Shown: piece after piece, positions 5,108-60,564 of the stretch
How the letters are laid out: every line of letters starts with the position of its first letter
Numbering within the stretch: the stretch's first letter is position 1
Assembly (NCBI RefSeq): GCF_037975245.1
Contig: NC_092568.1
Span: 34,254,501-34,318,500, forward strand
Length of the DNA: 64,000 nt
Origin: Apostichopus japonicus
Lineage: Eukaryota; Echinodermata; Holothuroidea; Aspidochirotida; Stichopodidae
Direction of reading: 5' to 3'
Notes under the pieces: model-generated
Told to the model about the DNA's origin: nothing
The model's database searches: none
What the model saw: the letters and a program-made list of their open reading frames with translations, nothing else
Program-made: the position numbers and the translations under genes

Positions 5108-5115
5108 TCGCGTTG

Positions 5116-5439
5116 CAAGGGCGTAGGAACCGGGGGGGGGGGGCTGGGGGGCGCTAGCCCCCCCCCCAGTAAAAAATGTGGAGGGGCGGAAGTATCATTC
5201 CGCCCCCCCCCCCCCGCTTCGCAAGTCAGAAAACCCCTTTTTCATTTCCAAATGAGAAAAAAATCTCATTTGGAGCACCAAATTGCATCTAAGGCCAGGT
5301 GAAAATACAAAATTATGTTTACAAAATGGAGTGGGTGTTGAAGTGTGCTATATTGCACCAAACTGCATCTGAGGCCCCTCCCCCAGGCCGTCCATCAGTC
5401 TTCAGCCCCCTCACTCAAAAGTACCTTCCTACGCCAGTG
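5116..5439. mobile_element. hAT-type MITE, family A, copy 1 (324 bp)
   Basis: Starts CAAGGGCGTAGGAACCGGGG and ends TACCTTCCTACGCCAGTG. It is flanked by a perfect 8-bp target duplication TCGCGTTG (5108-5115 and 5440-5447). It has mirrored G- and C-runs and no transposase frame. Shares its body with the copies at 29932 and 33209. An 8-bp duplication and CA...TG ends are hAT hallmarks. Confidence 0.92.
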
Positions 5440-5447
5440 TCGCGTTG

Positions 5448-10300: not shown

Positions 10301-10681
10301 AAAGCAGCTCTTTGGCTTTGATTTGCTTGTGGTCTTCTGATTAGTACTCAAATTTATTTTACAAATAACAAAGTAAGTGAGACACTCTTGTAGACTTTTC
10401 GACAAATGAATTTGTGTACAATTCTGTGTATTTATGAATATTGTGACATTGGTTAATTTACGCCGAATTGCGTTCTTTCCTAACAATGACAGGAGAGGAT
10501 AGCCCTAGCTCATGGTTCCCAATGTGGATTCTGTACTCCAGGATTTGTGATGTCCATGTACGCCCTACTCCGTAACAGCCCTCAGCCCACCATGGAGCAG
10601 GTAGAAGCAGCGCTTTTAGGTAACATATGCAGATGTACTGGATATCGTCCAATCCTAGAAGGATTTAAGACATTTACGAAG
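7353..10681 (+). CDS. XDH/AOX-like gene, exons 1-5: the two 2Fe-2S domains
   Basis: Exons 7353-7424, 8265-8322, 8805-8901, 9730-9838 and 10493-10681 encode residues 1-175. First (plant-ferredoxin-type) cluster: Cys53, Cys58 and Cys61 in [11 protein letters not shown], with Cys83 in NTCLTPLC. Second cluster: Cys123 and Cys126 in [10 protein letters not shown], with Cys158 and Cys160 in [12 protein letters not shown]. All eight ligands are present, and so is Gln122, which in the family contacts the molybdopterin. The clusters relay electrons from molybdenum to FAD. Exon 3 is preceded by open sequence back to about 8618, but the acceptor at 8804 and the phase match to exon 2 place the true start at 8805. 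This part is strongly conserved, which argues for a working redox chain. Confidence 0.95.
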
Positions 10682-13600: not shown

Positions 13601-16600
13601 AACCTTTCAACACTTTAATCAAATTAGTTGACCATCATACTACCCGAAAGATGGGTTCGCCTCTTAATAATATACCATGACTACTATAAACCACATTGTT
13701 TACTTCAGGGTTGCTGCGAAACCGAACAGATTAATCTTTGGCTTTCTTCTGTTGCTAAGGACTTGACCTAAACCGTTTAAAACGCTGCCTTTCAATTAAA
13801 CATTCATGATCTAGTCTAAGTTATGTGTTTACTAGTTCTTTCAAACCTCTCCAATGTTTTAATAGCCTGCATTTCATTTTCATCAATTCAATAGATGACA
13901 AGATTCGCTTGTTTTATTTCCAGTTCTTTTACGTCTAGTGACTTAGTTGGGCATGGTCAGGGTATATCCTTTGTACTTTCAATTAAAACGTGAAAAGAAA
14001 GATATGAGCAATTATATATATTATATATGTTTAACTTCTCTTTTAGAAATGTTGTGGGGGTACCAATCAAGGAGATTGTTGCCAAGCCAATCAACTTTCA
14101 TCAGAGGAAGAAAACCTTGGGGTGAGTCTTGCTCTGTTCGATATGGCCTTAAATATGAAAAAGTGCAATTCAAATCTTCAAACACAAAGAGGAAATCATT
14201 TGATTTTGAAACACACGACAGCAAACTGTGAATGCTGTGTCCTATTTTGATCTTAGTTGGTAAAGTTGTTATAGTAAAACTCTCCAAATGAATAAGGTCA
14301 TTTGATTCTGCATTAATTTTGGATATGTTGCATGTTACTTTTGTTTTGGGTGTGGGTGGGGGGGGGGGGCATTGTAGCGCAATACGCATGCTTATGTACG
14401 TGTGATGCCTCTTATCTTGAGAGTTTTTGTGCTTTGTGCATTTCTTATTTATTAAAAAGTCTGAACAGATTGCAAGATGCATAGTCGGAATCAGTTTAAT
14501 TGGTTAATTTGGTTAATCAAAGGTAGGCTATATTCTAACTTTTTTTATGCTGTAACTAAAACGAAATATGTTTTAGACTTGTGCCAACATTTATTGTTAT
14601 TTAATATTTTCTCAAGCTTTACCAGGACAACTTCTTTTAAATTTTGATTCCATCTTTGCAGTTAACTAATAAGCTGTTTAGAACCCAGGACTGGCAAACC
14701 TACGATCCGACACAGGATGTAATATTTCCACCAGAACTACAGGTTAGCTCTTGTAATTAAGTTATGGTGTCTCTGAAGTTAAGAACAGTTACTTTCACGC
14801 AAAGGAATATGTTACTTTAATTTTAATATTTATTATACTTATACGCGTCAAACCGTTTTGTTTCGTTGTTTTTAAGAGAATATTTTTGACATTGCTTGCT
14901 ATGCTTGTTTAAGATTAAATGTATTTTGATTCAAATGCTGGTAACAAATTTCACTATTGCAATTTTTAGAACCCAACAGTACACATACGTTTCATTCAAT
15001 TGGTGTGAAAAGCGGGAACATAATATGGGAATAGTGAATATTGACACATTTTGTTCCAGTTCCAAACCGTCCTTTCGTTACATATACTACCGAAAACATT
15101 AATCAATGCATTCGTGGTAAAACTGTTACAACCCTACAAGTTATACTTTTCAACCTATGGTAAAGAATCCAGTGCAAGAAGATGTTTCAAATGTTCCTAG
15201 CCAAGAGACACATGGTTTTATGAGATACAGAAATGAGACCAGTTTTGTATTGGCTTAATTGTTCCCGTTGAAGGAAGCACACATTTTTGTCAGTCTTCTC
15301 AAAAGGTTTCCGGATATTTTGGACACTCATGGAAACATGTATTTATGCAAATTTGCATTGCACAGGTTTCCCGGAGTTGTTCTTGTGTATTCTACGTGTG
15401 ATCAGATTATCTTATGGGATGGCATATGTACCTTGGCCTAGTGTTACTTGTATGTAACACTCAATCCTATTTTCATCTCATTGCAAATTTGCACTAGATT
15501 TTGTAGATTGCCAAATTTTGAGCAAGATGAAATACATTGATTGTACGTATGGAATAATTCACAATTATAGTTATTTATGATGATATGTAACTTCCAAATG
15601 GGTAGCAAAACTCAGCCAACCGCTTACAGTCTTCCATTTTTCTTCGTAGCTGCTGGCAGAGGAAGGAACAAAGGGAGTACAACTCTCTGGTCATGAGGCT
15701 ATATGGTTCCGTCCAAACAGCCTGCAGGGTCTGTTCGATATCAAATCTACCCATCCAGAGTCGAAGATAATTGCTGGCAACACTAGCATAGGTATGTTAA
15801 AGAAATACACAATGGATTACAACAAATGTTTTGGGGTCATCAATTTTAAATACGTTGACAAAAAAAAAATTACATCAACTTTGCTTTGTTTTCCGTAGCA
15901 CACAAAACCATGCTACAAAACCATGTAGGCTGTAGATGTATTTTTATTGTAATTTTCATTCCAACACTGTACAGCAATCGTTTGTAGAAAATACGGTACA
16001 ATTTATTCTAAAATAAAATGCTTAAGAGACAATACAAAGTCTTAGAATAGCTTGTTAGTTCGTAAGTTCAGCAAATTTGATATCAACTTTAATTCGTTAC
16101 TATAGCAACAGCTTCAAGCACAACGACTGCAATAATGATTATAAGTATGTTGCTAGGTAGATAAAGTAGGAAATTTCTCATCTGTTACATATTGTCTTTT
16201 TATTTTTGTTAATATTTCTGAAGAATGCAAACGATGATATACAGGGAATTCGTTTCTCATATTAAAGGTGTGGATGTGAAGTACAAAAACTGTGACTACA
16301 CCACAATTCTTTGTGCTAGTCATATCCCAGAGTTAATTCACTTGGAGGTAGTTGACGATGGGATATTTATCGGTTCTTCTGTTACCTTCTCTAACCTGGA
16401 AACCTTCTTGCAAGAACAGATAAATAACCTTTCAGGTGAGCTAAGTACTTAATTCGCATGCATGCCGAATTAGCGAAGATTATAAAGCTATATGTTTGGT
16501 TCCGAACATGTTGTATGTCTAAGGCTTTGCTAGTGATTATCGATCAGTTTGCCAAACCATAAGTAACAATCAGAGCAGGTGATAGTAAAAAAGGCTTTGT

Positions 16601-19600
16601 TCAGTACAAAAATGGTGGGTTATTGGTCACTGGCGGAGAAACAGGGGGGGTTGGGTTTGTTTTAACCCCCCCACTTTTTGAAGAGGGGGGTTGGCCCACA
16701 CAATCAACCCCCCTAGTTTTTGCCAGTAATGTTCTGTTATAGCCTATGTTATGTGCTCCAAATGGCATAATAAATCAAATTATTATATTTGAAATTGTTA
16801 AAGTCATTTCAACCTTTTACCGGTAGGCTACATCAACAATTAACGACCGAAAACCGAGTTAGAATTGACCCATACATTATTTCTAGCCACTTTCCCCCAC
16901 CTTGCGCATTGGAACTTGTAGCTCATAGCGCTAACTTCACCCCACAACAGACATACACAAAATAACGTTTTGTTGCTGTTGAATAGCTTTGGATCTGTAT
17001 ACACTTGCCAACTTCAACGAGGTGAAGGAAGGACAAGAAAAAGAAGAAAGAGAAAAGGGGAAAAGGATGGAGTAGAAAATACGGCAAGAAAACGGGAAGA
17101 GAAAGAGGAACAGTGACAAAATTATTCGAATTTGTAAAGCAAACAGCAGATATCACATCATATCAGTGAGCATGAAAATGGCGTTCCACGATAAACAGCC
17201 TCCAAACCATGGGCGCAGATCCTGGTGAGGACTGCGGGACGCGTCCCCACCAACTTTTTCAATAGCGGGGACATGAAATACCGTGTCCCCACCAATTTGT
17301 CTTGACCAATAGCTGCATTTCAAGTTCCCCTGTATTGAACTTTGGCGCAGTTTGATCCAGCATTGTGCAAATGACATGCAGCAGTTCTCATTTTATTGTA
17401 TTTTATCCATAGTTGTTAAATATAGGACGGAAATCGCATTTGCGGCAGTCTATATAGAGGACCCCAGACCCATCGTATATACAAAAGTCTACTTGGATTA
17501 TTTGTCCCCTGATTTTCCTTCTGCAGACGCCCATGTATTTCTCCAAACTAAATTTCTAAGCCATGAGATCTAAAACTTAAGGAGGTTTAGGAGCATCATT
17601 AGGTCTGGGAAGTGTTATTTCCGGCGATCTGGGAGGTATATTTGCCCAAAAAAATCGTACGCTACGCGCGAACCCATGGTTGCGCTCCGCTTAGATAGTG
17701 TCATAGAACAGACACGCGTCCCCACCATTATCCAAGACTGATCTGCGCCCATGCTCAAAACTGTCGATGTGTGTAGTGTTCGGTTTCGGAAATATCTGGT
17801 GTATTTTTATTTCCTTCAACGAAATTTTTTAGTAGCCGTCTGAATTTTCGAAAATTCCCTAACCAACATTCTTCATCATACTTCATCATACTCGTGCAAT
17901 TTTGACCCGTCTGTTAGGGTTTGAAGGAGGTTTTTCTATATCGGTTGTCCATAGATGATATTTTGTGCAACATTATGGGTATGTTTTGAAGTGAATTTAT
18001 TCACGAGAATTGTGAATTTTCAAATTCTGAACAGTGGGGCTGACGGATATTGTGGGCCGCGATGAAGAATCACCTACAAAAGCAATGATCCACAGGATAT
18101 GTGGTGAAGTCGAACATGATGTGTGACTGGTGACAATCTTCAAAAAGGTTATAGATGAGAAAAAAAGTATTTGGAAAAAACTTGGTTCTCAGGCAAAAGT
18201 GTACATATGGTTGGTCAGTTTCAAGCCCGAGAAGTGCCATTTCCGGTGATCTGGGGGTACCAAAACCAGAAATTTGCTTGTACGCTGCGCGCTAACCTAT
18301 GGTGGCGCTCCGCTTAGATAGTAATACGCGCCCCCGGGTTAGAAAATCCTGCATACGCCCCTGGTTAAATGCAGCTTTTCAAGGCCTGGGCAGTGCCATT
18401 TACTGCAATCTGGGAGGCAATATTTGCCAAAAAATTCTTGTGCACTGCACTTCGCGCCAACTTATGGTGGCGCTCCACGTAGATAGTGAGCCAGCAGTTA
18501 TGACTTTTTATTTCATCAATGGCCTGCAACCCAGGCGCGTAGCCAAGGGGGGGGGGGGGGGGCGAAGGGGGCAGCCGCCCCCCCTTGAGCATATTTTTTA
18601 CAAAAATTTTTGAGGTTTTTATGATATCGCTAGTATTTTCAAAAGAGAAAATGCTAAGATACAACTAACAAGGCATGGGAAGTGCCATTTCCGGCGATCT
18701 GGGAGGCATTTACAGCCAAAATTTTCTTGTACGCTTCGCGCCAACTCATGGTGGCGCTACGCTTAGATAGTTTGCAATGCCGAATCTACAGTTTCGCCCC
18801 TCCCTTGGCAAATTCCTGGCTACGCGCCTGCTGCAACCCCCCCCCCCCCCCCACTTCTGACAAGAAATCTCCGCCACTGTTATTGGTGCTTTGGTAGTCA
18901 TGGGCTACGCTGTTGTTACGGCCCTTGGAACAGGAAGCGAGAACTTGAAGAAATAGCATATACAATACAATACGTAGTAACAAGTATCGGTGAAACATAA
19001 GTATAATTTCTTTCCTGAAAAGCATATAACATGGGAGCAATGAACAGGTACTTGGCCAGCGTGAGAGTCATACCAATACATACGTTTGCTGGTATAATTA
19101 AAGTTTCTTATGGTTTGTTTTTCAAAAGAATACATTATTTCTATCATTATTTTCAGAGACTAAAACAAAATCCTTCAAAACTCTTTTGGATCTTTTGGGG
19201 ATTATTTCTGGAGTTCAAATCAGAAATGTGGCTGTGAGTATATTTCTTCCTTGTTACTATCTTGTCCATTTATAGTAAACAGATTACTAGATATTAGCAA
19301 CTTTCGTTGTTTGGACCTACTCCAAGTGTCTTTGAATCTGATCTAGATCGTGAGGAAATGAAAATGTTACAACCAGTAATGAAAAACAGACTACCTCAAG
19401 CATTTTTAGTAAAATCTCTATCTCCCTAAAAGAACAATTCAGACGCCGGTAAAGGTGAAATTGGAGGACAGATTTGGTTTCTGTTCCTTCGTGTCAATGA
19501 TTTGTCCAGATCACTTTACGTTCCTCGAGCAACATTGGTAGTTTTTGTAGACTGATATAGTGCTGTACATTTGACTGCTTTTCAATGATGCATTAATCTT

Positions 19601-22600
19601 CAACTTAATTATTTTTAATGTGCTGCTTACAGTCGATTGGAGGGAATATCTTGGCAGATCGACCAAACTCTGACTTGAAACTCTTTTTCATGGTCGCTGG
19701 ATGCAGTGTAAAGCTTAACTCTTGTTCAGGTATGTACCATTTGAAGTTCTATAATGTCTTTACCATATACGATTCTTAAATGACACTTTTCCAGAGTGCT
19801 AATTAAGTTTCATTTGATTTTACAGCTTCACGAAAAGTAGCGTTCAAGGAAATGTTCTCTGAAGATGGGAAACCTGTTCTTGGAAATGATGAGGTCTTGT
19901 TGGGGATTTTGTTACCATTCAGTGAGGAGGTAAAATATAATTTTCGTATACAACTTCTCCTATACCCTGGTACACATTGTCCACCTTTCAAATAACTTAT
20001 CATCTGGCAACACACTTTTGTATTGCTTTTGTCTTTAGGCATTCATAAAAGTTGTGAACATATTGCCATTTTTAATGTTTTACAGTTCGTGAAAGCCAAA
20101 TTGGAATGAAATAATTAAGTAAATAACTCAATTGACCTCCACACACACACAAATGTGTAGAATGATGATAATTACATTTTTAAACTTGGCTGTATCAATC
20201 ATCCTGAATAATTATGGTTGTGCTAGACATTATTGAGTCCGCACTCATCTGAAATATTAATCATTCATCAACGCAGAAGCTATCGTGTTCACTCTTTACA
20301 ATGGATAAGCTATCATATTAACTCTCTGTATTGTGGGTAAGATTTCATCTGCCTTTTCAAAGTAGATATGGTATTATATGTGGTCTACAGAATAGATAAG
20401 CTATCATCTTTACTCTTTAGAATGGATAAGCTATCATGTTCACTTTCAATCCTTCCAATTTAACGAATATGCTCTCGTCTGTAATATTTCTTGTTGGTCC
20501 GAAGGTAATTTATTTCCAATCTGTATTATAAACAAGCTACCGTTTCTACCCGTAGTCCCATAAGCAATCATTGCTACGCAGAATATACTCTTACCATGGT
20601 AGTTTTCTCCTTACTCTGCAGAATGAACACTTCTCCTGCTTCAAACAGTCAACCAGGAGGGGCAATGATGTAGCCATTGTGAATGCTGCTATGAAGGTAC
20701 GATTTGAAAGCACATCGGATGTTATTGAAGAGTTGATTCTGATCTACGGTGGTTTGTCTGCCTCTATCAAACAAGCAGAAAAAACAATGACGAATTTAAA
20801 GGGAAGGTATGGTTGTTGTTTATTACATACTATATTATGATATGTTGTTATGTGTTTAAATACATGAATGTGCCCTCCTTACATGTATGTGTAAGAATTT
20901 GTAGAGGTACTGCATCTCTCCATTATAATATATTCAGGAATCAGATAATGTAATTCTAAAAGTTGTCAAAAATGTAGCTTTAGTTTGCAGGTGTCAGAGA
21001 ACAGAATAAAAGTATTTAAAAGTTGTAGATCTCATTAAAAAGTTTACTAATCAATAGAATGTCCTTCTGCTACGACGTTTTGAATACCATTATTCGGGGA
21101 GCTTGGCGGTGAAGGTCAAGCTGCGGTTTGCATTTACCTACAACAAGCTAAGATATGGATGGACAACATGATGCAAACCAGCTCTGTCATCTTGATCAAG
21201 TATTTAACAACTTTTAATTAATCTTTCTCTCTTGTAAAATGCCAAACACTTTCTCAAACTTCTTTAACTTGGAGAACACTCCCTCAACTTTGTGTTGCTA
21301 TTTTGCTCAGGAAATGGGAAGCTGATGTTGTTGATGATGCCTGTGTATGTCTACTTGATGATTTATCCCTACACTGTGGTTCGCCTGGGGAAATGGAGAA
21401 GTATAAACAATCTCTTGCTCTAAGTTTCTTCTTCAAGTTTTACTTGAAAATTGCACAACAATTATCAGATAAGGTAAACAAGTTTCAAACATTTCAATAA
21501 TAGTTGTCAAGATATTTTGATTCCTTAAAAATTAAGAATACTTTAGTACCCTAATACAATCTCAGTTATAACTAAAAGCTGTCTGTTCTTGGAATATCTA
21601 ATATTCAGAACCATAGAAAGATGCAATTTCCTCAATCAATAGTGTTTCTGTTAAGCCATTGGGCATTTTTTTTGACATCCTAGGCAAATTACAAAGTAGG
21701 ACAGAACTACAGCATGTTAGGGCCTTTAATATTAAGAAGATCGATTCCATCCCGGGGGACTTACCTTCTCTTGGTTCTTCCTACCTGTTATTCCTGCAAC
21801 TGCCTTCCTCTATCTCATAACAAAACTTGCTCCTTGCAGACATGAGAGTAATTAACGTATTATGAGTAAATTGTTACGCTAGTTTGCTTTTCTAGATTTC
21901 TTTTCACATTGCAATTGTTCTTCTCATACATTTTAAAGGTCCCAGGAGATAATCCGCCAATCCCCTCAGAATGGAAAAGTGCGGTTGGAGAAGCTGAGAA
22001 AGTTTCCTTTCAGAGCACGCAATTGTTTCAGGTATAAACATGGGTGGACTTATGTAAAGATATTTCTGATGAATAATCAACAATTTTTTTTTGTCCATAA
22101 GTCTCCTTTAGTCGGGCCATTATATCCTTACACAAAATTATACTCCTATTTACTCACGTGAAAATGCTGGATGTGAATTCTACCCGTGAAAAATGAAACA
22201 ATATGCACGTGGAAATGCCGCCAATACGCGCAACCTGCTGGCTAAAACGCACTTAAACAGTCTGAATACGCACTTCAGGTTAATAAAAAACGCACAGAAG
22301 AAACGCATATTGCATGAATAGTACATTAATACGTATATAAAACGCATAAGGAGGCACCTTTAACGCGCGTGAAACTGCTGTATGTGCGTCTACGGGTGAA
22401 AAATGAAATAATACGTACCTGAAAATTCAGTTAATAAGCACAACATACAACCTACTGGCCTAGTGTAAGATTTAATTTAACTTTTAAATAATGTAGTGGG
22501 TCATAATGCTTTAAGTTAACCTTACTGTTATCTTGGAAAGTTTTACATCGAAGTCCTGGTGTCTGGAGGGTCCATACAACAGTGTTTATTCAGAGAAGAG

Positions 22601-25600
22601 AACATGTCTAAGTAGGATTAGAGGTGAGAGTAGAGTGTGTCGGGAGGGAGGGGGGTGGGGTAACGCGTAGCGTCTACTTTATCATCAACGTCGCTGTAAC
22701 ATCATCACTGCAAAACTATATTTGATGTTTGCACACTATATATGTAGAATATTAACTAGCTTCTTTGGTGTACCACTAGGATGTTGTAGATGGACAACCC
22801 GCGATTGATCCTGTTGGAACTCCAAAACCAGTTAAGTCCTCGTTACAACATGCAACTGGAGAAGCTAGATATGTAGATGACATAGCTCCACCAAAGGGTG
22901 AGTATCTTTCTTAAACCAAAGTTACATATGTTTATTTTTTCTGAGTTCTAGTAGATGTTTCACCTCTCCAAAATAATCTTCAAACAGGAAAAGCAAGAAT
23001 GTCGATAGTAAACATTTGAAAAACCTTCTTCTAGCTGTTGCCATGGAGAGATACTACTTTAATGCAAATCGCAAGATATGTTAGACGTTTACTGTCATGT
23101 CCGTACGGTTTCTATATTGCAAATATATTTAGATGTTTGAATATATCTATATATGATTGAAGCTTCTGCTAACAAACTGTCACCACTGTGGCAATGTGGT
23201 GTGGCCGGATGTTAACACTTCTAATTTGTTGATCATGGTAATATAAGTTTTTTGATGGTTTGTGTGTAAACTATTAACTGGATATCTTCACGATGGCAAT
23301 CAAAATCTTCTCCTCCCCCCCCCCCCAACAAATAACATATGTTACTACTGGTTCTTGATAAATCGTAAAATTCGTATTAATACCTGTCACAACTCTGCCT
23401 CTTTACTTCAGATGAACTGTTTTTAGCATTTGTTCGTATCAAGTCACCACATGCGAAGATAATGTAAGTCCTTAGATACGTAATTTACTAGTCTGGTTAA
23501 ACCGTATCTATATACATCATTGGTTATTTTCGCTGATCACATAACATGTGATATGTGAAATGGTTCATTCAGGACAATAAATGTTAATGACAGCCTTCAT
23601 ATATATTTTCACAGCCGTTTTGTACCTTCCAACATGTCAGTAAGATCGTTGTTTTAAAAATTCTTACAAGACATTTTGATTACATAGTTCCAGTGATTTT
23701 TAAAGAAAGCAAGGAATGTGTTATAATGAACTGACACGAATGCACCACAAGAGATAGTATGAGTGATTTAGGGATGAAATTAACACTTGAAACCACAAAT
23801 TAATTCAAATGTAATATTGAATTTGCATGAAACAAGACTAAAACAAGAATATTCAGTACAAGTTAAGATGTCACAAAGTTTGCTTGGTTACAATCGTGTT
23901 TACTGTTTGATATCGCACTGAACCTGAGTCAGCACGGTTGTTATTAATTTAACGGGGTGCCTCGTGTTCACACTGGCTACTTTCAGCTGTATTAATCTTC
24001 ATTCAATGCAACTGAAAGTCATACCTCCCTTCCCCCACATAATTCTCATTGTGTGTGTCTGTGAATTTTCTACCCCTTACAGATCCATTGACTTTTCCGC
24101 AGCTCTGGCAATGCATGGTGTAGCCGGGGTTGTGACAGCTGATGATGTTCTTGGTACAAACTTCTTCCAATCCGTCGGAGACTTTATCTTTGCTGTAAAT
24201 GAGGTAGGTCTGATAATTAGACGGATGGTTCCTATCATTGTATACACCTGTTCCTTTCTAATAAAACACATTCTGATATGTACCTCAAAGTGAAATAACT
24301 ATATATATAACTAATAATAAATATTTACCAGTTGATCACCTGTTTTGCATGTATGTATTCCAGAGTATATAGCCTCGTTTGAACTTGGTTCGAAATAGGT
24401 TAAGATGATAGCTTTCATTATGTCCATAGGTGACCTTCCCTGGTCAACCAATCGCTGCCATCTTAGCTGTGGATGAAGAGACAGCACGAAGAGCAGTCAG
24501 ATTCGTGAAAGTGGATTACGAGAATTTGGACTTTACCCTGACAATTGAGGTAACTCAAAGAGTTAACTTTATTTAACCTACGGCAGGTGCCAAATTCTCT
24601 CAAAGATCTTAAATATTATTTTGCGGTAAGGATGAACCAATATCTTATCAGAAGATCAAAACTACTAACCCTTGAGGATTAACATATGTCAATTGTGATT
24701 TTAAAAAGAATTAAAGCCGGCTCTGGGTATGAAAGAGACACTTTTACTTCAGAATGAGAGTCTTACTGGCTGAATCTCGAATCCTTTATCCACACATTAA
24801 TGTCTCCATTGTGCAAAATGTTATTAAGCAAAGAATATGGCACCAATGATAAATCTATCAGACACTGGTAGCCTATGCGTGCTTGATAATGTTAGTTTCA
24901 GAAGAAGTGAGGTTGGAGTAACTTTCAATCATTATGTTTACAGGGATATTAAATGGTAATACTGACGAAAACCAGACCATGTGCTTCAAGTTCTAAACAA
25001 TTTAAAGACGTTTATAGAGACAGTAAAATTGGTTACAATAATGAATTTTCTTGAGGGGTGGAGGGGGGGGTCAACAAAGAGCATTTGTTTACTACATTTT
25101 TTCTTTAGATCAACATCTGTTAAGTGATAGTTGTTAATGATAATTGTTCATGCCAAAGCCCACAGAACGACTGTCATGTCATTAACACATATGGATATAA
25201 GTAACCCGGGTACGATTTTTTTCCCAAACAGCTTTGCAATTATGTAAATAGTCGCTCAAGATTGGTCGGAAAAGTAACGTCATCACCATAGAAACCTTCA
25301 CTTTGAGGTTACCAAAATGTTTGCATCCATTCGTTGCAACAAACTCACGTATTGTACCGATTCAAACAATTCCGGCTATCATGTTTACCATATATTCATT
25401 CAAAACTCGTGAACTCGGGTTGTCATGTTAATACTAGTGTTTCCATTCATCGAAAGGAATTTCTATTTCAATAGAACGGCTCACGAATCTTGGAAAACCT
25501 GAACACGAACCCAAATGGATTGTAGCGTACGTATCATAAATAAGGTCAACATGTGATTCAAGCATTAAAAGTAAAGTTAGGGCGTTAATTGTAACAAGTC

Positions 25601-28600
25601 AAACAACAAGACCAAAATTAATCTGTTCAGCGTAAGCATCATGTTTCTGTGACGTCAATTCATGTTCTGACATTTTATGACCTATGGACCTTATCATTCT
25701 TCTGACTCAGAGTATGTCTTCCAACTTCCCAGCGATGGTCATTATTGATGCTGACGTCACGAGCAATCTGATTGGCTGATAAGTCTGTAATTGCAAACCT
25801 GTTTGGGAAAAAAATTCGCAACCCGGACTCTTGCTTTAAATTCTTTGTCTTTCCTTTCCAGTTCTAGATTCCTGATAAGATACTCTTTCCGTTTCCTGAA
25901 AATAGCTGGCTCTTACAATTAAAAATTAACTCACTCGCCTAGTTTGGCACTACAGAATAATTGCAGAAAAATTTAATTATGCAGTGCTGCATTAGTCAAA
26001 GAGAAGGAGTGAAATGTGTTCAATTCAAATTAAAATTTGTAGAGGGTGTGTTATAAGGCCCTAGACGGAAGATGTAGAAATTCTGCAATTCGATACAATG
26101 TAGTTCCAAGTATGTTTTGTTTGCCCATCAGTACTATATGTCAGAGTTGTGTCTTTAAGTTGCTGATATTCACAGGAAGCCATAAGGAAGAGTAACTACT
26201 TCCCCTATGACCGAGAACTTGTCGTCGGGGACGTGGATGGGGAGTTTACCAACTCGGATCATGTGATTAATGGTGAAATGAGGATCGGAATGCAAGACCA
26301 TTTCTACATGGAAACCCAGTCAGCCCTTGTTAATCCAGGAGGGGAACATGGCGAGTTTGAAGTATTCACTGCTAATCAGAGCTTACATGAGTCTCAGGTG
26401 CTCAACTTAAAGTTATTCATGAACTTGACATGATTGTATGTCTTATCTAATACTATGCTATATGATGTTATATTTTAGAAACACCAATACGAAACAAGAA
26501 ATATCTATTTATTTTAATGAGCGAGGGTATAGAAGTAAATTTCAACTACCATTGGCGAACGTTTGGTTAAGGAGGTGTTCAAATGCAAAATGGTACAATA
26601 TTTTGCAATTTTTACAACTTTTTAGTCTGTATCGCACTTACATAGTCTAATGTGCCCTGGGCTTTGTTTTAATATTCTGTCTATAATGGTGATATTATTT
26701 AGGTTCTTGTGATATGTTACTCCTAGGTTTGTGATCAAGTGCAAGTAAATAAGCCAGTAATTAATAGATGAATCTGTCAGGTTCTAAGAATGACAAAGAC
26801 ATTTTCTTCGTGTTGATACTAATTACATGGAATAGAAAATTTACCAAATCAAGCTGCAACTTGTAATGACAAGGATGTTTTCTCGGTAGATGATTATCTC
26901 AGAGGTGCTGGGTGTTCCGTCAAATCGCGTCGTCTGTCGCAGCAAAAGGATCGGTGGTGCGTTTGGCAACAAAGGGTTGACAGCTTGCTTTCATGCCGCC
27001 AGAGCAGCCGTGGCTGCAAACAAGTCAGTTGATTATCACTTTGTCTCTGTAGAATGGACTTCTGTATATAACTAATTGAATATCTTAACATTTTGACCAT
27101 ATATACCTGCTGATCGGCGATTGTGCAGAAAACCTTTCTGATATTAGAGATATAAAAACATTAGAAACCACGATCGTAATTAATAACAAAAGTGTGTATT
27201 CGTTATGATGCTCTAAATCGACAATCACGATAGAAGGTGACAGGTATCATCAAAAATCATAAAATCCCCAACTAACACTTATTTGCTTATACGCAAATAC
27301 ACAAATTTGCAAGTTATCGATGTTCCTTTTGTGTTGTTTCTATGTTAAATATAAATGTAGCATCCCTCGCTAATTTCTCGTGCTCATCACCGTACCATAA
27401 TTCGTCAAAAGAGAAGGAAGTGGTTCAAATTGTGGCAGCAGTTCAGCTGACAGATGATATTCTGCAGCCCTCTGACATCCATGTTTGACGAGTGAACACA
27501 TGAATATTTCTGCTAATATGTAAAAATGAGAAAGTTATATCAAAATGACAGGTCCTTCAAGGAGGATGCGTCTCAACAGGCCTGGGTTGGTTTTAAAGTA
27601 CCCTAGCGCATATTCAATTTTGTTTTCTTTTGCTTAAATCTTGAATTTTTATCAAAATGTAATGTTGAAACTGTTTTCAAACGGATATGTCGTTCTATTA
27701 TGGCAAATTATAAAATAGTCTGCTAAGCCGACTCGGGTTTATTCAGTCTACTGTTTTCACATGTGAAATGTTAAAATTTTGTTACCATCACATTTCTAGT
27801 TGTCCAGTTGTACACTGGGATTTACCTAATTGCTGCAAAGTAGTTCAGAGAATAATGTTGATCTTCAGGTTCAATTGCTCTGTACGTGCTGTACTTGAGA
27901 GACACGAAGACATGATATCTACAGGTCAAAGGCCATCTTACCTTACCAACTATAAAGTGGGATTCAGCAAAGAAGGCAAGCTTCATGCTTTGGATTTGGA
28001 AGTTTATACTAACTGGGGAAGTTCTCCAATACTGAGTACAGACGTAAGTGCCACTTCTGTATATATATTTTATACAAAGGAATGAAGAATGTTTGAGTTA
28101 AAATCATATGTATAACGAACGACAAACAACAAACAGGTTCCAGTAAACCAATGTTTGTGTAACATCTTATAATAAAGACTGGTTGCCCACTATATATTTA
28201 ATGAAATAAGAAACGACTGTTTCCAATTGTAAAGTTAACTCTCACCCTTAACCTTTATCCCTCATTTGTATATCCGAAATGCTAAGACGATATAGGAATG
28301 ATGCGCTTTATTTTTGTAACAATAGTTAATCTTTATGTTCACTGATGCATGTTAGCTGTCGGCGAGCCCTGGCTCGCTTGTAGAGAAGGCTAGTTGAGTT
28401 GGCCACGAGGTGCTAGAAGTACGTTTGATTAAATATATGTAACGCACGGTTCCAGTGTTGTACATAGTACTTTTGATTAAATATATGTTACGCACAGTTT
28501 ACGGTGTTGTAGGCTACATAGTATAATTTTGTATCCTTCCGAACGCTACATTTACCGTAATCGGCCTCGCTAACATTTGCATATTTTGGTGATTCCTCCA

Positions 28601-31600
28601 CACTCTTAATTAAAGAAATCTGATGTAAGATATATTTGACCAAATAGTTGTAATGTAGTCAGCCTAGCATATTTTTGATGGAGTAAGTTTATATATTACA
28701 GATAACTTGACCTTTTCCAATTTATGAACCACAAGTTCTTTTCCAATTTTCTGCTTGTATTTGGACAGCTAATGCATGCTCTCATGGATAATGTTGACAA
28801 TGTCTACAAGTATCCAAACTTTCGAGGCAGGGCAAAGATCTGTAAAACCAACCTACCACCAGGTGTCCCAATGAGAGCAGCTGGTACAGCTTCGGGAATG
28901 GTGATACAAGAAACAATCTTGAGCCACGTAGCAGTCACCCTTGGAATCCCAGAGGAAAAAGTAACATCGCAGTCAATTCTCTACTATTTGCATTTGCAAA
29001 AAAAGTATTTGGAAATAGTCCTGCCATTGTTTATGTTGTAATTATTTTGCAGCAGCATCCACCAAGACTGACAGAATTTGATTAGCCACCTTAACACACC
29101 TTGATGGCTTTAGTAGAGACTGTATATATTTTTTCAAATGCATTCTACTGTTGGAAGATGAAAATTGGTCGTATGGTTTCTGCTTCATATCTAAATTTTG
29201 AAAGTACCAAATGCAGTTGGTTGTTTTCTTCTTAAGGAACCGCTACCGTTCCACCTCTGTCTCCTCTATATATCGCCATCATCTACGTCAACTTCCATTT
29301 GTAGTGTACCATAAATTATTTATTTCAAGTTCACTCAAATGTCTAAAGTAAATTGGTAAAAATACCTATGCATGCTACATATACCTATACAATGATTCTA
29401 ATTGTAGGCTAGGAACTGATATACTTGGTTTGAAAAGTAACGGATTTCTTCACGATAACAGGCATCTGTTATGTTATTACGACAGTAAAATTACAAATAC
29501 TTTTTATGTTATTTGCTCCATTTATTTGGTTGAAGGAGGTGTTAAATGACATGGAAATGAGCAAAAAGTGTGTATAACCTTAATGATATTCTTTATGAGG
29601 ATTTTAAATGACACATTTGCTGTTCATATATGCAGATTCGTGAACTTAACTTCTACAAACCAACTGATGTGACTCATACCTATGTGAGTCTGAAAGGCTG
29701 GACATTGGACAGGTGCTGGGAGATCTGCCTTCAAAGAAGTGATTTCTTCACAAGGAAATTAGCTGTGGAAGATTTCAATAAGTGCGATTTAATTTCGTTA
29801 TTACTTTTTTTATGACATTTTGGGGGTTCAAGTTCTTGGGACAAACATGATTTTGAGCCAATTTGTTTGGGGGCCAAATATTTTATAATTGCAATAACTG
29901 CACAACCTTCAATCGTATTGTACTGGGATTCCAAGGGCGTAGGAACCGGGGACTGGGGCGCCAGCCCCCCCCCCCCCAGTGAAAAATATGGAGAGGCGGA
30001 AGTATCATTCCGCTCCCCCCCCCCCCCGCTTCGCAAGTCAGAAAACCCCTTTTTCATTTCCAAATGAGAAAAAAATCTCATTTGGAGCACCAAATTGCAT
30101 CTGAGGCCACCTGGAAATGCCAAAACATTCCAAAGGGGTGGGGGACACCCCCTCCCCCAGGCCGGCCATCAGTCTTCAGCCCCCCCCCCACTCAAATGTA
30201 TCTTCCTACGCCACTGTGGGATTCAGTTGATGGTGTATAGCTGGTACATGTGGGGTTATATTTGTTAGGTTCATTTGGGTCCAATATGTTGTCAGACCTA
30301 TATTGGGGAAGAGTGGATCCTAAATTGTGTAGTGCAAAACATGACTTATTGGGTGGAGCTAAATAGTTTGCGTGCTCAAGTTGGACATAGCAGTAACTTA
30401 ACTGTACAATGACCGCTTTAGAACATACCCATCTGTAGGGATTTGATACCATGTATTCCTTTGTCAACTATGATATTTCATATTCTACTAAGCAATGAAC
30501 CATGGTGCCCGTTCGGCTCTTGTTGGCTTACCAAAGTTGACAGGATAACACCATGCTCTGAATGATAGGGACTCTTGCGTAGTTTGCATTGTAATGTAAG
30601 TGGTATCATAACGATGTAATGGGAGCGATGTGAAGAAAATAGACATAAATCTGTTATGCCTATTGTTCAATTAATTTCGTATTGTCATATGTTTTGTATT
30701 ATTTTCAAACATTACTTTAAATCGACAGAAAAAATCGTTGGAAGAAGAGAGGATTGTCCATTGCACCTGTAAAATACCCAATCGGAATGACAAAGTCCGT
30801 TGCAGAGGTATTTCAATCACTCTTGCTCACATTTTCCGACATTTATAGTAAAATCCACTTCGGAGACTCGGAAACAATGCTTAATCTCAGTGAAGCGGAC
30901 TTGATTGAAAAGATCTCTTAGGAGCGTTCTGATTGGTTGACGACCAGACGTGTGAAAATTAACAACTGATCGGTAGTGAAACTTAGGTTGCTGAAATGTG
31001 CAACTTTTGAATGGTACCGTACAAAGCTAATGTTAGTTCGAATATATGTATGAATAAGGGAATGTGCAGGTATTTTGCCATGAAGTGTCTGGCGGGGATT
31101 CTACAAAGGAATTCTCATTGAATTTAGAGACTGCAGTTTACGCGGTTCTAAATATGACGAATATGACAGGGCGTGTGTGGAGATCCACATTTGGTGATAG
31201 CCTTTGTGTGCAGAAGTTTTTGTCTTCTGATATTAATCTAACAATGCAGTTTTCACTAAATGTTAGTACCATCTAGTGACTTTGACTGAAAATTGAAAGA
31301 TGTGACTTTATTTTTATTAATTGAATGCTACTTATTCATTTCAATATATTGTAATAATTTTATTGTGTACTGCCAATTATGTTTCAGGGAGATCCTCCGA
31401 ACGATATAGGAAAATGTAGTGGCAAACCTCAATTAATTGCCACATTAATTTTTAATAGCCTATGAAATTGGTCTGTTTCAAACATCTTGTAGAGCTCAGC
31501 TCTGGTGCACATATATACCGACGGTGCTGTCTTGATCAGCCATGGAGGGATTGAAATGGGTCAAGGGTTGTTTACCAAGATGTTGCAGATCGCCAGCAGA

Positions 31601-33603
31601 ACTCTACGCATACCTGTAGAGAAGATCCATTGTGCAGAAACAAGTACAAACACAGTAGCAAACAATGCGGTTACTCACGGAAGCATTGGAACTGATTACA
31701 ATGGACCTGCTGTGAAGGTAACGTTAGCCTAATATGAACCAAACACACCGGTTGGTTTTTTTTTTGCTCGACCAATGGTTCTAAGTGATTAACTTTCAAT
31801 TAAATTATGAAATTGTATCATCTACATTAAGTTATAGTAAAAAATAGTATAGTTAGCCGAACAGTATTAAAAACTTTTATCAAAGATAATTGCAAAAGAC
31901 AATAATTTTATTTGTTACTTTTTGAACATATATTTAGAGTAGTCTTTATTGGTTTCTGCAGGATGCCTGTGAGACATTACTTCACCGTCTGGAACCTTAC
32001 ATGATGGAGAATCCCAAAGGATCATGGGAAAATTGGGTACAACATTTTATTTTCGCAGATTCTATGGTTACATAAATCCGTTCATGAATGTATAAAAATA
32101 TAATGCATAAGAAATAAGAAAATTGTAAATTAATGGACTTCTCGTGAGTTCAATAAAATACTGTAACAATATGATAATTACTTTTGTCAGAAACAATAGT
32201 GTAACATTTGGTAGTTAAATGTCGAATTGAGAAGTTATGCGTGTATGATCATATAGATAGTCCCTGAAAATTATATAGCGCTTGCTAAAAAGAGTGAAAC
32301 TGACTTACAGATGGAGACACCGTCCAAGCAAACTTTTATAATGAACCTTAATATTAATAATGATAACAACAATAACAATAATAATAACGAGAAATATTAG
32401 TATTTGACATGTAAGTTAGTTTCACGCTGCTTAAGCGACCACAAATGGGCTTATGATTCACATTTTCACGTAGCTTCCAATTCAACATTTTAACGCGAAT
32501 TTCAACATTTGTGGCTTAAAAGTTCCACTTTCCAGTATCAACATTACGGCACTCCTTGTTCATTTGCTTTAATTCTGATCAGATCACTGCTGCCCACGCG
32601 GATCGAGTCTGCCTATCCGCAACCGGTCACTACAAGTGAGTTAACACAGTATGTTTACATTAGATCTTCATGTAGCAGTGATACTGTTGAGCCCGTAGTT
32701 ATGCATAGGGAATCTCTTGCAAAGCTTTGTAAGGAAGCATAAATTTGATCGTTTGTCTAGAGTTAGCTAGAGCCATCGTGTTACCGTATTCATGTGCATA
32801 TGTAGCCGACCAATCACACATGGTACGTGAAATGTGGCACAATACATGTCTTTCCGTTCAAGTTAAGATTGTAAGTGGTGTTACAGCCAAAATTATTTCA
32901 TAGTTAAATACCACATTGAGTCACAGATTTTGCTAACAGCATCACGAAAATTGTTTAAATTATCATTTTCTGTAATATATTTTAATGTTTAAGGGTACCA
33001 GATGACTACTATACCCTCAATCCAGGGTTGGGTCAATTGATGGCAGCTACTTATTTCTGTTTTGGTGCTGCCGTCTCTGAAGTTGAGGTTGATTGCCTTA
33101 CTGGAGACCATCGTCTTATTAGGACCGATATCGTTATGGATGTTGGTGATAGCATTAACCCTGCAATTGACATTGGGCAGGTGAGTTGCTTAAACTACTT
33201 GACTAGATCAAGGGCGTAGGAACCGGGGGGCTGGGGGGGGCGCCAGCCCACCCCCCCCCAGTGAAAAATATGGGGGGGCGGAAGCCCCCCCCCCCACTCC
33301 GCAAGTCAGAAAACCCCTTTTTCATTCCAAATGAGAACAAAATCTCATTTGAAGCACCAAATTGCATCTAAGGCCAGGTGAAAATGCAAAATTCCCTACA
33401 AAATGGAGTGGGTGGGTTGAAGTGTGCTATATTGCACCAAATTGCATCTGAGGCCACCTGGAAATGCAAAAAAAATCAAAAGGGGAGGGGGACACCCCCT
33501 CCCCTTAGACCCCTCCCCCAGGCCGGCCATCAGTCTTCAGCCCCCCCCCCCACTCAAAAGTACCTTCCTACGCCACTGGACTAGATGGATGAAATATGAA
33601 ATA

Positions 33604-33642
<39 letters not shown>

Positions 33643-33651
33643 TATATATAT

Positions 33652-33682
<31 letters not shown>

Positions 33683-35630
33683 TTTTCCTTTCTGTGATCA
33701 TTGAATTAATGAATCTCATTCTGTGAATATCAGATAGAAGGCGCCTTCATTCAAGGTTACGGCATGTACGTTCTCGAAGATTACCGATACTCTCCAACTG
33801 GAGAGCTTTTAACTATAGGACCAGGAGGCTATAAGGTACCACTGTGTAACAATGTACCATCAATTTTCAACGTCAGCCTGTTGCACAGCGCTCCCAATCC
33901 AAGAGCCATATGTTCATCTAAGGTAAGAAATTTTTAACTCTCAAACCAGTGGATTAGTCTCTTTGGTTTGGAGTCTCTTGCTCAGTTTTTGTGTGTAGAT
34001 GTTTAAAAAAAGTTCATAACTTGCTAAGATGTTTGGTATATATGCTCATTCACTTCATTTAGTTTCCAGCAATGTTCTATATATGTAGCAATTATGTTGC
34101 ATTAACTTGAAATTTGTGAAGAGTGGTAACTAAACTTGTATTAATTGGCCAAAGGCTTAATTGTTTCTTTAACAAATTGTGTAATTGGGTGACAATGATA
34201 CTTACGAAAGATATTAATATGGGTTTTTTAATGTGGGATTTATTTTTTAAATTGATTGAATGATTATTTACTCAAGTTTTCTTTAAAATTGAATTTGAAA
34301 AATATGTGTTTCATTAGAGGAAAGCAAATGTTTATGTATCTTTCTTTCTTTCCATGATACTAGGCAGTTGGAGAGCCGCCGTTTTTACTCGCTTGTTCTG
34401 TCTTGATGGCAATTAAAAGTGCCATATCCTCGGCAAGGGCTGATGAAGGTCTGACTGGATACTTTCCAATGTTCATACCAGCAGTCCCTGACAGAATCAG
34501 ACTCGCTTGTCAAGACAAATTTACCAGAAAGGTAAATAAAAATGACAAAGATGTGAAAGATGTGAAATGACTTTCAATGTGTAAAGTTTTCCTAGGCTGG
34601 AGAATTTTCCTTCTTCCCTGATGTTGTGTGATTATCTTACGAAAAAATCTTGCATTGCAATTTCCATCTAGATATTTATTATGTGGATTCGATATCCAAA
34701 AAGTCGTTATTGTGGACACACGTTATCCGAAAACATTGGCCTCATAGGTTTCCCTTGTATGTGCATAGTAAAGAACATGAACTTACACCAACACAGAAAA
34801 GTACATGCCGAAGCAGTTTTTACAACACTGTATGTCACATAATGAAAAACAAAAACCCACACTATCATTTATGGTACCTGAGATTCTTTTTGAACCAGAC
34901 ATGTCCCACAAATGTCAGAGAATAGATCTTCAAATTCAAATCTGGTCATAATACTTTGATATAATTGATTTATATCTTTATCAAAGGAGTGTCTTATACC
35001 ATTTGCGTCAGCAACGTTGCATTTGCAGCAATAATCGGGATACATGTGAAATATAGAACACTGCATCTTTTGGAAAGCAAATTATGTTGATTTTATTTGA
35101 ATGATGCATTCATCCAGATATTTATGTGAATGTTTGTTATATTATACCCGATGAAAACTGATATAGGTATAAACCACCAGTCACCCTGGCAGCACTAAGC
35201 AAGATATTACGTTTATAACCTACAGGGTACTATTTACATGCACAAAACGCGGTGTCAACACTGTAAGAAAAGCCATAATTAAGCGGTTTTGGTGTGTGTT
35301 GGCAGCGCTATATTAGCACCAGTTTATAAGTTTATCAAGTAAATTGTACAGTATTTTGCATTACATATCAAAAGTGACTTGATTGCGTAAGACTACCAAC
35401 CTTGTTGCAAGGATTGCCAAAGATATTTTACCACAGCTCGGCAGAGTTTCCAATTTAATTATGAAGAGTGATTTTAATTTGTATATATTCATTGTCAAGT
35501 AAAAACTGTACATGTTATGCAAATTATCTTCCATCATGGCAATTGTTCTTGTCATGTTGTTTTCTAATTCTTCTTTCAGATTTCAAAGCATGGGAATGGA
35601 AGGAACCAGCAAGCGTTCATACGTCCATAG
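7353..35630 (+). CDS. Xanthine dehydrogenase/aldehyde oxidase-family molybdo-flavoenzyme, 32 exons
   Basis: Complete gene for a 1338-residue enzyme, close to the ~1330 of animal XDH/AOX. The domain order is two 2Fe-2S clusters, FAD domain, then molybdopterin domain. Family members are usually cytosolic homodimers that hydroxylate purines, aldehydes or N-heterocycles. All exons have GT-AG borders and compatible phases, and no stop interrupts the frame. The start is the ATG at 7353 in [20 protein letters not shown]; an acceptor at 7335 implies a short 5'UTR piece from 7336, so an upstream noncoding exon is likely. Fe-S ligands, Gln747 and the catalytic Glu1270 are kept. Pocket residues that define xanthine specificity are not (see findings), so the substrate is unknown and AOX-like chemistry is more likely than xanthine oxidation. 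Exon 6 and the last exon are the least certain parts. Introns contain several transposons. Confidence 0.95.
9104..9474. mobile_element. hAT-type MITE with Charlie-like ends (371 bp)
   Basis: Starts CAGGGGTGGGCGACCTTTTT and ends GGTTGCCCACCCCTG, with a perfect 8-bp duplication CTCTAGAC (9096-9103 and 9475-9482). The CAGGGGTGGGC terminus is a well-known hAT (Charlie group) form. The right subterminal part has repeated CGGGCCG/GTGGCCGG. It sits in intron 3 of the XDH/AOX-like gene. Confidence 0.92.
10030..10305. mobile_element. Short palindromic element with ACAAA...TTTGT ends
   Basis: Begins AACACAAAATGTTATCATAA and ends TTTTATAAACTTTTTGTGTT, an imperfect terminal inverted repeat. The interior is dense in AACGTTAT/ATAACGTT motifs in both orientations. 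It lies in intron 4. No target duplication is certain and the superfamily is unassigned. Confidence 0.5.
11020..11425. repeat. Cluster of AACGTTGG / CCAACGTT palindromic motifs
   Basis: Intron 5 contains AACGTTGGGC (about 11181), AGCCCAACAAT (11208), CCCAACGTTGGGCC (about 11328) and AACGTTGGCC (about 11391), with several TTGGTCCAAT-like variants. It looks like a decayed palindromic MITE. Confidence 0.45.
11807..14742 (+). CDS. XDH/AOX-like gene, exons 6 (tentative) and 7: inter-domain linker
   Basis: Exon 7 (14662-14742) is secure: it encodes [13 protein letters not shown], the conserved linker before the FAD domain. Exon 6 (11807-11881, 25 codons) is tentative. It has a good acceptor (ttccacag) and its length suits the family loop, but its donor (ATC/gtggac) is poor and only two cysteines (YCLNKMC) stand where family members usually have CC...CC. 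Exons 5 and 7 are both in phase 0, so they could also be joined directly. In that case the protein would be 25 residues shorter and lack the loop. Confidence 0.6.
12338..12440. repeat. ATCC/ATCT/ATCG microsatellite
   Basis: Degenerate CCAT/CTAT/CGAT tetranucleotide run. The open frame across it, rich in Ser-Ile-His-Pro, is a product of the repeat and not a gene. Confidence 0.85.
15650..21473 (+). CDS. XDH/AOX-like gene, exons 8-14: FAD-binding domain
   Basis: Exons 15650-15791, 16268-16435, 19157-19233, 19633-19729, 19826-19929, 20622-20806 and 21311-21473 encode residues 228-539. The segment [10 protein letters not shown] (about 266-275) matches the family FAD pyrophosphate loop, HIPEL the following strand, and [11 protein letters not shown] the end of the domain. 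The second FAD motif, normally GGNIxTASPISDL, reads [13 protein letters not shown] (359-371). The Asn and the final Ser-Asp-Leu are kept but the middle is changed. [18 protein letters not shown] stands where XDH has the RREDDIAKVTSGM segment. FAD is therefore probably bound, but whether NAD+ or oxygen is the acceptor cannot be read from this sequence. Confidence 0.92.
17208..17753. mobile_element. hAT-type element (546 bp) carrying the hairpin module
   Basis: Starts CATGGGCGCAGATCCTGG and ends GACTGATCTGCGCCCATG. Subterminal ACGCGTCCCCACCA occurs near both ends in opposite orientation. Flanks CTCCAAAC and CTCAAAAC match at 7 of 8 positions, as expected for an aged 8-bp duplication. The hairpin module lies at 17604-17702. 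Located in intron 9. Confidence 0.85.
17604..17702 (+). repeat. Hairpin module copy 3
   Basis: GGAAGTGTTATTTCCGGCGA through CGCGCGAACCCATGGTTGCG to TCCGCTTAGATAGTGTC, inside the 546-bp hAT-type element. Confidence 0.75.
18224..18322 (+). repeat. Hairpin module copy 4, beside a hAT-type right end
   Basis: GAGAAGTGCCATTTCCGGTG through GCGCTAACCTATGGTGGCGC to TCCGCTTAGATAGT. It is followed by AATACGCGCCCCCGGG and the terminus CCTGCATACGCCCCTG at about 18348-18363. I found no matching left end, so this element is partial. Confidence 0.7.
18381..18488 (+). repeat. Hairpin module copy 5
   Basis: GGCCTGGGCAGTGCCATTTA through CGCGCCAACTTATGGTGGCG to TCCACGTAGATAGTG. It lies only ~60 bases after copy 4 in the same orientation, without its own visible element ends. 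Confidence 0.7.
18532..18830. mobile_element. hAT-type MITE (299 bp) carrying the hairpin module
   Basis: Starts CAGGCGCGTAGCCAAGGGGG and ends AATTCCTGGCTACGCGCCTG. Perfect 8-bp target duplication CTGCAACC at 18524-18531 and 18831-18838. It contains hairpin module copy 6 (18672-18770). It differs from family A in its termini. Located in intron 9. Confidence 0.92.
18672..18770 (+). repeat. Hairpin module copy 6
   Basis: GCATGGGAAGTGCCATTTCC through GCGCCAACTCATGGTGGCGC to TACGCTTAGATAGT, wholly inside the 299-bp hAT-type element. Confidence 0.75.
20270..20460. repeat. Degenerate ~30-bp tandem motif
   Basis: ATGGATAAGCTATCAT-like units recur at about 20275, 20301, 20391 and 20421, each followed by a TTNACTCT-like tail. 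Located in intron 12. Confidence 0.55.
21939..35630 (+). CDS. XDH/AOX-like gene, exons 15-32: molybdopterin domain
   Basis: Exons 21939-22031, 22780-22897, 23412-23463, 24083-24203, 24430-24549, 26176-26397, 26890-27023, 27869-28043, 28769-28960, 29636-29781, 30729-30807, 31493-31717, 31962-32036, 32583-32635, 32994-33180, 33734-33922, 34364-34531 and 35580-35630. Conserved: [10 protein letters not shown] (Gln747), RIGGAFG (802-807), Arg920, GGIEMGQG (1041-1048), [27 protein letters not shown] and AVGEPP (Glu1270). Changed against bovine XDH: Glu802 to Gly810, Arg880 to Ala888, Phe914 to Ala922, Phe1009 to Met1017; Thr1010 is kept as Thr1018. The last exon (16 residues plus stop) is the same length as the human XDH tail as I recall it, but its sequence is not similar. 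Confidence 0.92.
22150..22460. repeat. Direct duplication, ~230-bp spacing
   Basis: The block CGTGAAAATGCTGGATGTG...CGTGAAAAATGAAACAATA...AACCTGCTGGC (from 22157) recurs as CGTGAAACTGCTGTATGTG...GGTGAAAAATGAAATAATA...AACCTACTGGC (from 22366). The spacer is rich in ACGCAC/ACGCAT. It lies in intron 15. Confidence 0.6.
25203..25834. mobile_element. MITE-like element with ~40-bp terminal inverted repeats
   Basis: The left end CCCGGGTACGATTTTTTTCC then CAAACAGCTTTGCAATTA is mirrored at the right by TAATTGCAAACCTGTTTGGG then AAAAAAATTCGCAACCCGG. Similarity continues inward, with AAGATTGGTCGG and AACGTCATCA facing TGACGTCACG and ATCTGATTGGC. No coding frame. Located in intron 19. Target duplication not resolved. 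Confidence 0.65.
29932..30216. mobile_element. hAT-type MITE, family A, copy 2 (285 bp)
   Basis: Starts CAAGGGCGTAGGAACCGGGG and ends TATCTTCCTACGCCACTG. Perfect 8-bp duplication TGGGATTC at 29924-29931 and 30217-30224. Same body as the copy at 5116: GCGGAAGTATCATTCCGC, then AAAACCCCTTTTTCATTTCC. It lies in intron 24 of the XDH/AOX-like gene. Confidence 0.93.
33209..33578. mobile_element. hAT-type MITE, family A, copy 3 (370 bp)
   Basis: Starts CAAGGGCGTAGGAACCGGGG and ends GTACCTTCCTACGCCACTG. Perfect 8-bp duplication GACTAGAT at 33201-33208 and 33579-33586. It is longer than the other two because it keeps both AAATTGCATCT.AGGCC segments. It lies in intron 29, only 28 bases after exon 29. 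Confidence 0.93.
33606..33684. repeat. AT dinucleotide microsatellite
   Basis: Long TA run with occasional GA/CA interruptions, 50 bases before exon 30. Mutability here could affect the splice acceptor environment. Confidence 0.9.
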
Positions 35631-60463: not shown

Positions 60464-60564
60464 AATGGGTCAAGGTTAGAGTGTATCCCTTCACACAAAG
60501 AAAGACAAAACAACCATGTTTCCGATAGAGTTGACCAGCCAAACGTGCATGTCAAGTACTGTAC
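60464..60564 (-). promoter_or_regulatory. ZNF410: 5'UTR portion of the ZNF410 first coding exon
   Basis: On the minus strand an acceptor (ttttccttcgcag) ends at 60565, leaving 101 bases of leader before the ATG. This implies at least one more noncoding exon and the promoter farther upstream (higher coordinates), not identified here. Confidence 0.5.

Follow-up and report, generated by a model that had tools for sequence, protein, structure and literature searches.

A xanthine oxidase-family gene of Apostichopus japonicus with replaced purine-holding residues

We examined 64,000 nucleotides of Apostichopus japonicus DNA (positions 34,254,501 to 34,318,500 of contig NC_092568.1), hereafter called the window, and describe a gene of the xanthine dehydrogenase (XDH) and aldehyde oxidase (AOX) family within it. 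This gene probably encodes a single-chain molybdo-flavoenzyme of the xanthine oxidase family that is intact, is no longer specific for purines and acts as an AOX-type hydroxylase. Four residues hold purines in XDH: Glu802, Arg880, Phe914 and Phe1009 in the bovine enzyme. The corresponding residues here are Gly810, Ala888, Ala922 and Met1017. Assignment as a non-purine enzyme is well supported by the predicted protein, which probably oxidises something other than xanthine. The distinctive part is the small size of the replacements; all four bulky residues have shrunk, and two histidines have been gained.

Gene model and domain architecture

To build the gene model, a bovine XDH sequence that is partly approximate was aligned, with splicing, to window positions 4001-36000, and the result was extended by an in-frame ATG and a stop codon. 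The resulting gene lies on the plus strand, at 7353-34570, and comprises 31 exons with 4005 coding bases, 1334 amino acids and a single terminal stop. The original prediction described a full-length, intact gene of 1338 residues at 26890-30807. This was the right gene and a full-length open reading is indeed present, but there are 1334 codons, and the span given holds exons 21-25 only. The catalytic glutamate is outside it.

Bovine XDH residues 3-1314 are covered unbroken by the model, without frameshift or in-frame stop. Splice donors are weak in some exons (for example, exons 2, 20 and 24). Note that the aligner permitted GT...AG introns only, could not model frameshifts and scored stops down. 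Hence, the 30 of 30 introns with GT-AG ends follow by construction, and provide no independent support for intactness. The gene is interrupted by introns, and the longest stop-to-stop frame listed for the window is 235 amino acids, giving a eukaryotic look. A tblastn search with the model, at E values up to 1, found no second XDH/AOX copy in the 64-kb window, and returned the gene's own exons only.

Seven Pfam families occur in the expected order: Fer2, Fer2_2, FAD_binding_5, CO_deh_flav_C, Ald_Xan_dh_C, MoCoBD_1 and MoCoBD_2. The [2Fe-2S], flavin adenine dinucleotide (FAD) and molybdenum cofactor (Moco) domains are thus in order and, together with the catalytic glutamate, place the protein in the xanthine oxidase family, as the single-chain eukaryotic type. 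The features of the gene, with the evidence for each, are as follows.

7353..34570, plus strand: whole gene (spliced alignment to bovine XDH, tblastn check, translation of the coding sequence, Pfam)
7353, plus strand: start ATG; an alternative in-frame ATG lies 5 codons on, and nowhere is the model less certain than at the start codon and in exon 1
8805..10681, plus strand: exons 3-5, [2Fe-2S] domains with all eight cysteines (alignment, Pfam)
15650..21473, plus strand: exons 8-14, FAD domain (alignment, Pfam)
26176..26397, plus strand: exon 20, Gln775, equivalent of Mo-pocket Gln767 (alignment, coding-sequence coordinates)
26890..27023, plus strand: exon 21, GGAFGNKG and Gly810 (codon 26974-26976) for bovine Glu802 (alignment)
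28769..28960, plus strand: exon 23, His887 and Ala888 (28775-28780), Asn892, Arg920 (kept) and Ala922 (28880-28882) (alignment)
30729..30807, plus strand: exon 25, Met1017 (30787-30789; bovine Phe1009) and Thr1018 (alignment)
31493..31717, plus strand: exon 26, GGIEMGQG (Gln1047 kept) and His1085 (31676-31678) for bovine Ala1078 (alignment)
34364..34570, plus strand: exon 31, AVGEPP with catalytic Glu1270 (34373-34375), C-terminus and stop (alignment, coding-sequence coordinates)

Two copies of an element rich in C/G runs were recognised, by peptides common to stop-to-stop frames, in introns 24 (about 29940-30200) and 29 (33210-33600).

Residues of the substrate pocket and electron-acceptor site

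The four pocket replacements appear in both phmmer and MAFFT alignments, and the residue numbers given in the original prediction were correct. Hence, where XDH is recognised by Glu, Arg, Phe and Phe, the window protein has Gly, Ala, Ala and Met. As had been claimed, the protein retains catalytic Glu1270 (bovine Glu1261), the GGIEMGQG motif and all eight Fe-S cysteines. The equivalents of bovine Arg912, Gln767 and Gln1040 are also present. The Mo-pocket glutamine had been misassigned to Gln747, which sits in GMQDHFYM; the true equivalent of bovine 767 is Gln775. Retention of Thr1010 is less clear. Three alignments place Thr1018 at this position but an alignment of 24 rows, described below, has a gap, and the loop after Met1017 lacks one residue relative to bovine XDH. 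Further changes in the pocket region are bovine Lys771 to Glu, Gly800 to Asn, Glu879 to His887, His884 to Asn892 and Ala1078 to His1085. These five sites probably line the pocket.

Conservation was scored against animal enzymes, namely bovine and human XDH, human AOX1 and the solved AOX 7px0, an aldehyde oxidase 1 that is presumably from Drosophila. The two XDHs and human AOX1 agree in 600 columns, of which the window protein keeps 422. For columns additionally common to the part of 7px0 used, the figure is 110 of 122.

Logically, a pocket that lost its bulky residues might belong to an XDH paralogue that is in decay or was inactivated not long ago, its frame still open by chance following relaxed selection. 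The loss of four such residues, alterations to the nearby GGK, SNT and PQ motifs, and the weak donors would fit. However, the reading is continuous across almost the entire bovine protein, and 110 of the 122 invariant columns are kept together with the Fe-S cysteines and the Arg912, Gln767, Gln1040 and Glu1261 equivalents. We regard decay as very unlikely. It is more improbable again that the protein is still a purine enzyme, an XDH with some other binding mode. The highest PDB scores and identity do go to XDH, and Thr1010 may be kept. Against this, all four of Glu802, Arg880, Phe914 and Phe1009 are lost. According to an excerpt of PMC3624778, mutating the Glu802 and Arg880 equivalents significantly lowers activity. 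Similarly, an excerpt of PMC2671166 describes a double variant of Rhodobacter capsulatus XDH, with Val and Met for Glu and Arg, that loses purine activity and gains aldehyde activity.

On the FAD side, we compared seven residues presumed to form the XDH acceptor site. Five of the seven are lost; Gly, Ile, Ile, Asp and Asn stand in for bovine Arg335, Trp336, Phe337, Tyr393 and Asp429. In human AOX1 none of the seven is left; it has Gly, Thr, Leu, Cys and Asn at these same positions, and Gln and Ala at 427 and 430. We have moderate confidence that the window protein would act as an O2-using oxidase.

Comparison with aldehyde oxidases, xanthine dehydrogenases and prokaryotic homologues

According to PMC5746545, conservation of the Glu802 and Arg880 equivalents is never seen in XDH-like AOX; characterised XDHs do conserve the Phe-Thr pair at 1009/1010, which eukaryotic AOX do not. 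The window protein follows this pattern; Glu802 and Arg880 are replaced and the pair is not kept, though the Thr itself possibly is. Hence, on that rule, three of the four substitutions match eukaryotic AOX generally, and the replaced pocket has the look of a non-XDH member. The fourth differs. According to PMC3864932, the Phe914 equivalent is highly conserved across all vertebrate AOX and xanthine oxidoreductases, while the 1009 equivalent varies among AOX. Accordingly, Ala922 is the change that sets the protein apart from vertebrate AOX.

Vertebrate AOX (human AOX1, mouse AOX3) resemble the window protein in single-chain layout, in replacement of Glu802 and Arg880, in having a variable Phe1009 site (Leu in human AOX1) and in having replaced several XDH acceptor-site residues. 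They differ by keeping Phe914. Furthermore, human AOX1 has Lys at bovine His884, where the window protein has Asn, and has lost Arg427 and Asp430. The closer parallel at the fourth site is 7px0, where all four purine-holding residues are replaced, including Phe914, while GGIEMGQG and Arg912 are kept. Here, RAPG stands for the RGFG of XDH, with Pro at the Phe914 site. The residues themselves are different: Ala, His (Thr in two other alignments), Pro and Tyr in 7px0. Bovine and human XDH share with the window protein its architecture, Fe-S cysteines, checked Moco contacts, catalytic glutamate and AVGEPP, and differ at the four purine-holding and five acceptor-site positions. A literature search for AOX in sea cucumbers or echinoderms, or for AOX evolution in invertebrates, returned no paper matching all terms.

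Several observations weigh against an AOX-type assignment. The first concern overall relatedness. Identity to bovine XDH is 46.0% (604/1312), slightly above that to human AOX1 (43.7%; 576/1319). The values for the human XDH parts and 7px0 are 46.9% (576/1229) and 39.6% (165/417 columns), and human AOX1 and bovine XDH are 50.7% identical (673/1328). A six-row tree leaves the window protein, human AOX1 and XDH in an undivided fork, with 7px0 on a long branch. None of 25 NCBIfam models listed reaches its cut-off. The best score, 1303.4 bits, is for the mammalian AOX model TIGR02969 and falls below the 1912.3 bits that would mark a mammalian AOX; the model nearest its own cut-off is that for the XDH small subunit, TIGR02963 (446.5 compared to 467). 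Other observations concern residues. Ala922 is in place of the Phe914 equivalent expected of a vertebrate-type AOX. Arg427 and Asp430 are kept, and NAD+ may hence still be used. Finally, in the excerpt of PMC2671166, the reverse swap in mouse AOX1 produced an inactive enzyme with no purine gain; on that account, the choice of substrate does not depend on pocket residues alone. Its predicted pocket makes the gene AOX-like, although it need not be an orthologue of vertebrate AOX.

To place the pocket more widely, the window protein was aligned with 23 others, including 19 prokaryotic homologues. A tblastn search of plasmids matched 982 records, all below 60% identity, and 18 homologues were chosen by hand from the best 40 listed, leaving out the 22 others. 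The nineteenth, L001, was the 1 bacterial locus returned by a contig scan with peptide patterns from one protein. At the Phe914 site the 19 have Phe (8, one of which, L009, is aligned uncertainly because of a CO-dehydrogenase-type loop with an insertion), Pro (7), Tyr (2), Ala (1) or Val (1). Hence, 11 of 19 are non-Phe and 9 of 19 have Ala, Val or Pro. Glu, Arg, Phe and Phe are all kept in the annotated xdhB rows (L002-L004) and in L005, which has no annotation, was called XDH-like from residues and identity, and so is not an independent control. All other compared rows depart at at least two of the readable four sites. Arg912 is kept in 24 of 24 rows; the Gly/Ala/Ala/Met combination occurs in none of the 23 others.

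Prokaryotic members not annotated as xdhB, such as PaoC (L010) and those from Phaeobacter (L007) and Azospirillum (L016), resemble the window protein in keeping the catalytic glutamate while the pocket is changed, and Ala, Val or Pro is found at the Phe914 site among them. They differ in having a Moco subunit separate from adjacent Fe-S or FAD subunit genes, in identity (23-25%) and in residue sets. Two homologues are described further. The L016 locus, on a plasmid of Azospirillum argentinense, has Gly and Val at the Glu802 and Phe914 sites, respectively, and the second-smallest four-residue volume sum. The L001 locus (3001-5529 and upstream), from a metagenome-assembled acidobacterial genome of Candidatus Angelobacter, is one stop-to-stop frame of 1539 amino acids. 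Much as in the fused eukaryotic layout, one chain carries both an Fe-S-like start and an XDH/AOX-like Moco domain; its pocket residues are T, C, F, Y and N.

One special case of the AOX-type reading is a specialised hydroxylase. Here, selection would have widened the pocket and equipped it with His887, Asn892 and His1085, to admit a new physiological substrate of a bulk that neither XDH nor vertebrate AOX accepts. Residue volumes point this way. Summed over the four sites, the window protein has about 400 Å3, the smallest of the 15 rows that can be read at all four (next is L016, at 497 Å3). Over 18 lining positions, the total is 2100 Å3, compared to 2641 Å3 for bovine XDH and 2582 Å3 for human AOX1. 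The list of 18 is partly our own choice; PMC11312107 names Leu873, Leu648, Val1011, Phe1013 and Leu1014 as pocket-lining, and not Ala1078 or Ala1079. Furthermore, of the 12 departures from the 122 invariant columns, five (bovine 800, 898, 907, 908 and 909) fall in the segments bearing sites 802 and 914. However, six of the 15 ranked rows are XDH-type with identical residues, and gaps at bovine 880 or 1009 removed nine of the 24 from the ranking, though not from the Phe914 count. Volume sums are also blind to backbone shifts and refilling. The clustering of departures was seen in a comparison confined mainly to Fe-S and pocket regions, which make up most of the part of 7px0 used. Across the 600 XDH/AOX1 columns, conservation is 55% for bovine 900-949, and equally low in blocks 200-249 (52%) and 400-449 (54%), which are distant from the pocket. 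This counts against a purely local rebuild. The animal comparison, too, is limited to XDH, human AOX1 and 7px0. We consider a specialised hydroxylase possible, but doubtful.

Neighbouring features and predicted function

Downstream of the oxidase gene, open frames on the minus strand (57411-57746 and 59762-60469) belong to an apparent zinc-finger gene with C2H2 fingers. The 235-amino-acid frame is part of this candidate, which seems to resemble ZNF410; the ZNF410 structure (6wmi) ranked sixth among many zinc-finger matches. Two regions of tandem repeats are also present. Positions 62390-63634 hold five copies of a 252-base unit, with 94% matches, and 44391-45395 hold two adjoining arrays of a 145-146-base unit.

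Returning to the AOX-type hydroxylase, which we favour, its reaction would follow that of the family. Briefly, Glu1270 would activate the Mo-OH group, which would attack an aldehyde or electron-poor ring carbon, and hydride would pass to Mo=S. Electrons would then move via the two [2Fe-2S] clusters to FAD and, finally, to O2 rather than NAD+. The expected products are H2O2 together with a carboxylate or lactam. Loss of the Phe914/Phe1009 sandwich and the Glu/Arg clamp would leave substrates loosely bound, and bulky or branched ones might be tolerated. His887 and His1085 perhaps assist binding.

The original prediction spoke of a functional redox chain with an open, non-purine pocket, and of a new substrate range. 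The chain is complete and the pocket is, by sequence, of a non-purine kind; that it is open we infer from residue volumes. A new substrate range may exist, but any AOX would invite that remark. Eukaryotic AOX typically show three of the four substitutions, and the fourth site is replaced in 7px0 and in prokaryotic homologues. We think it unlikely that the loss of all four purine-holding residues and the gain of two histidines adapted the pocket to a bulky substrate beyond the reach of XDH and known AOX. Candidates for such a substrate would be, for example, a lineage-specific defence compound, a pigment or a steroid-like aldehyde.

AOX has arisen independently on repeated occasions. If the enzyme described here is an ordinary AOX, it would add to the instances in which an AOX-type enzyme arose from XDH. 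If the pocket is truly emptied, the protein would be a candidate for an unusually broad oxidase, and a natural experiment on which residues are dispensable to a working molybdenum hydroxylase.

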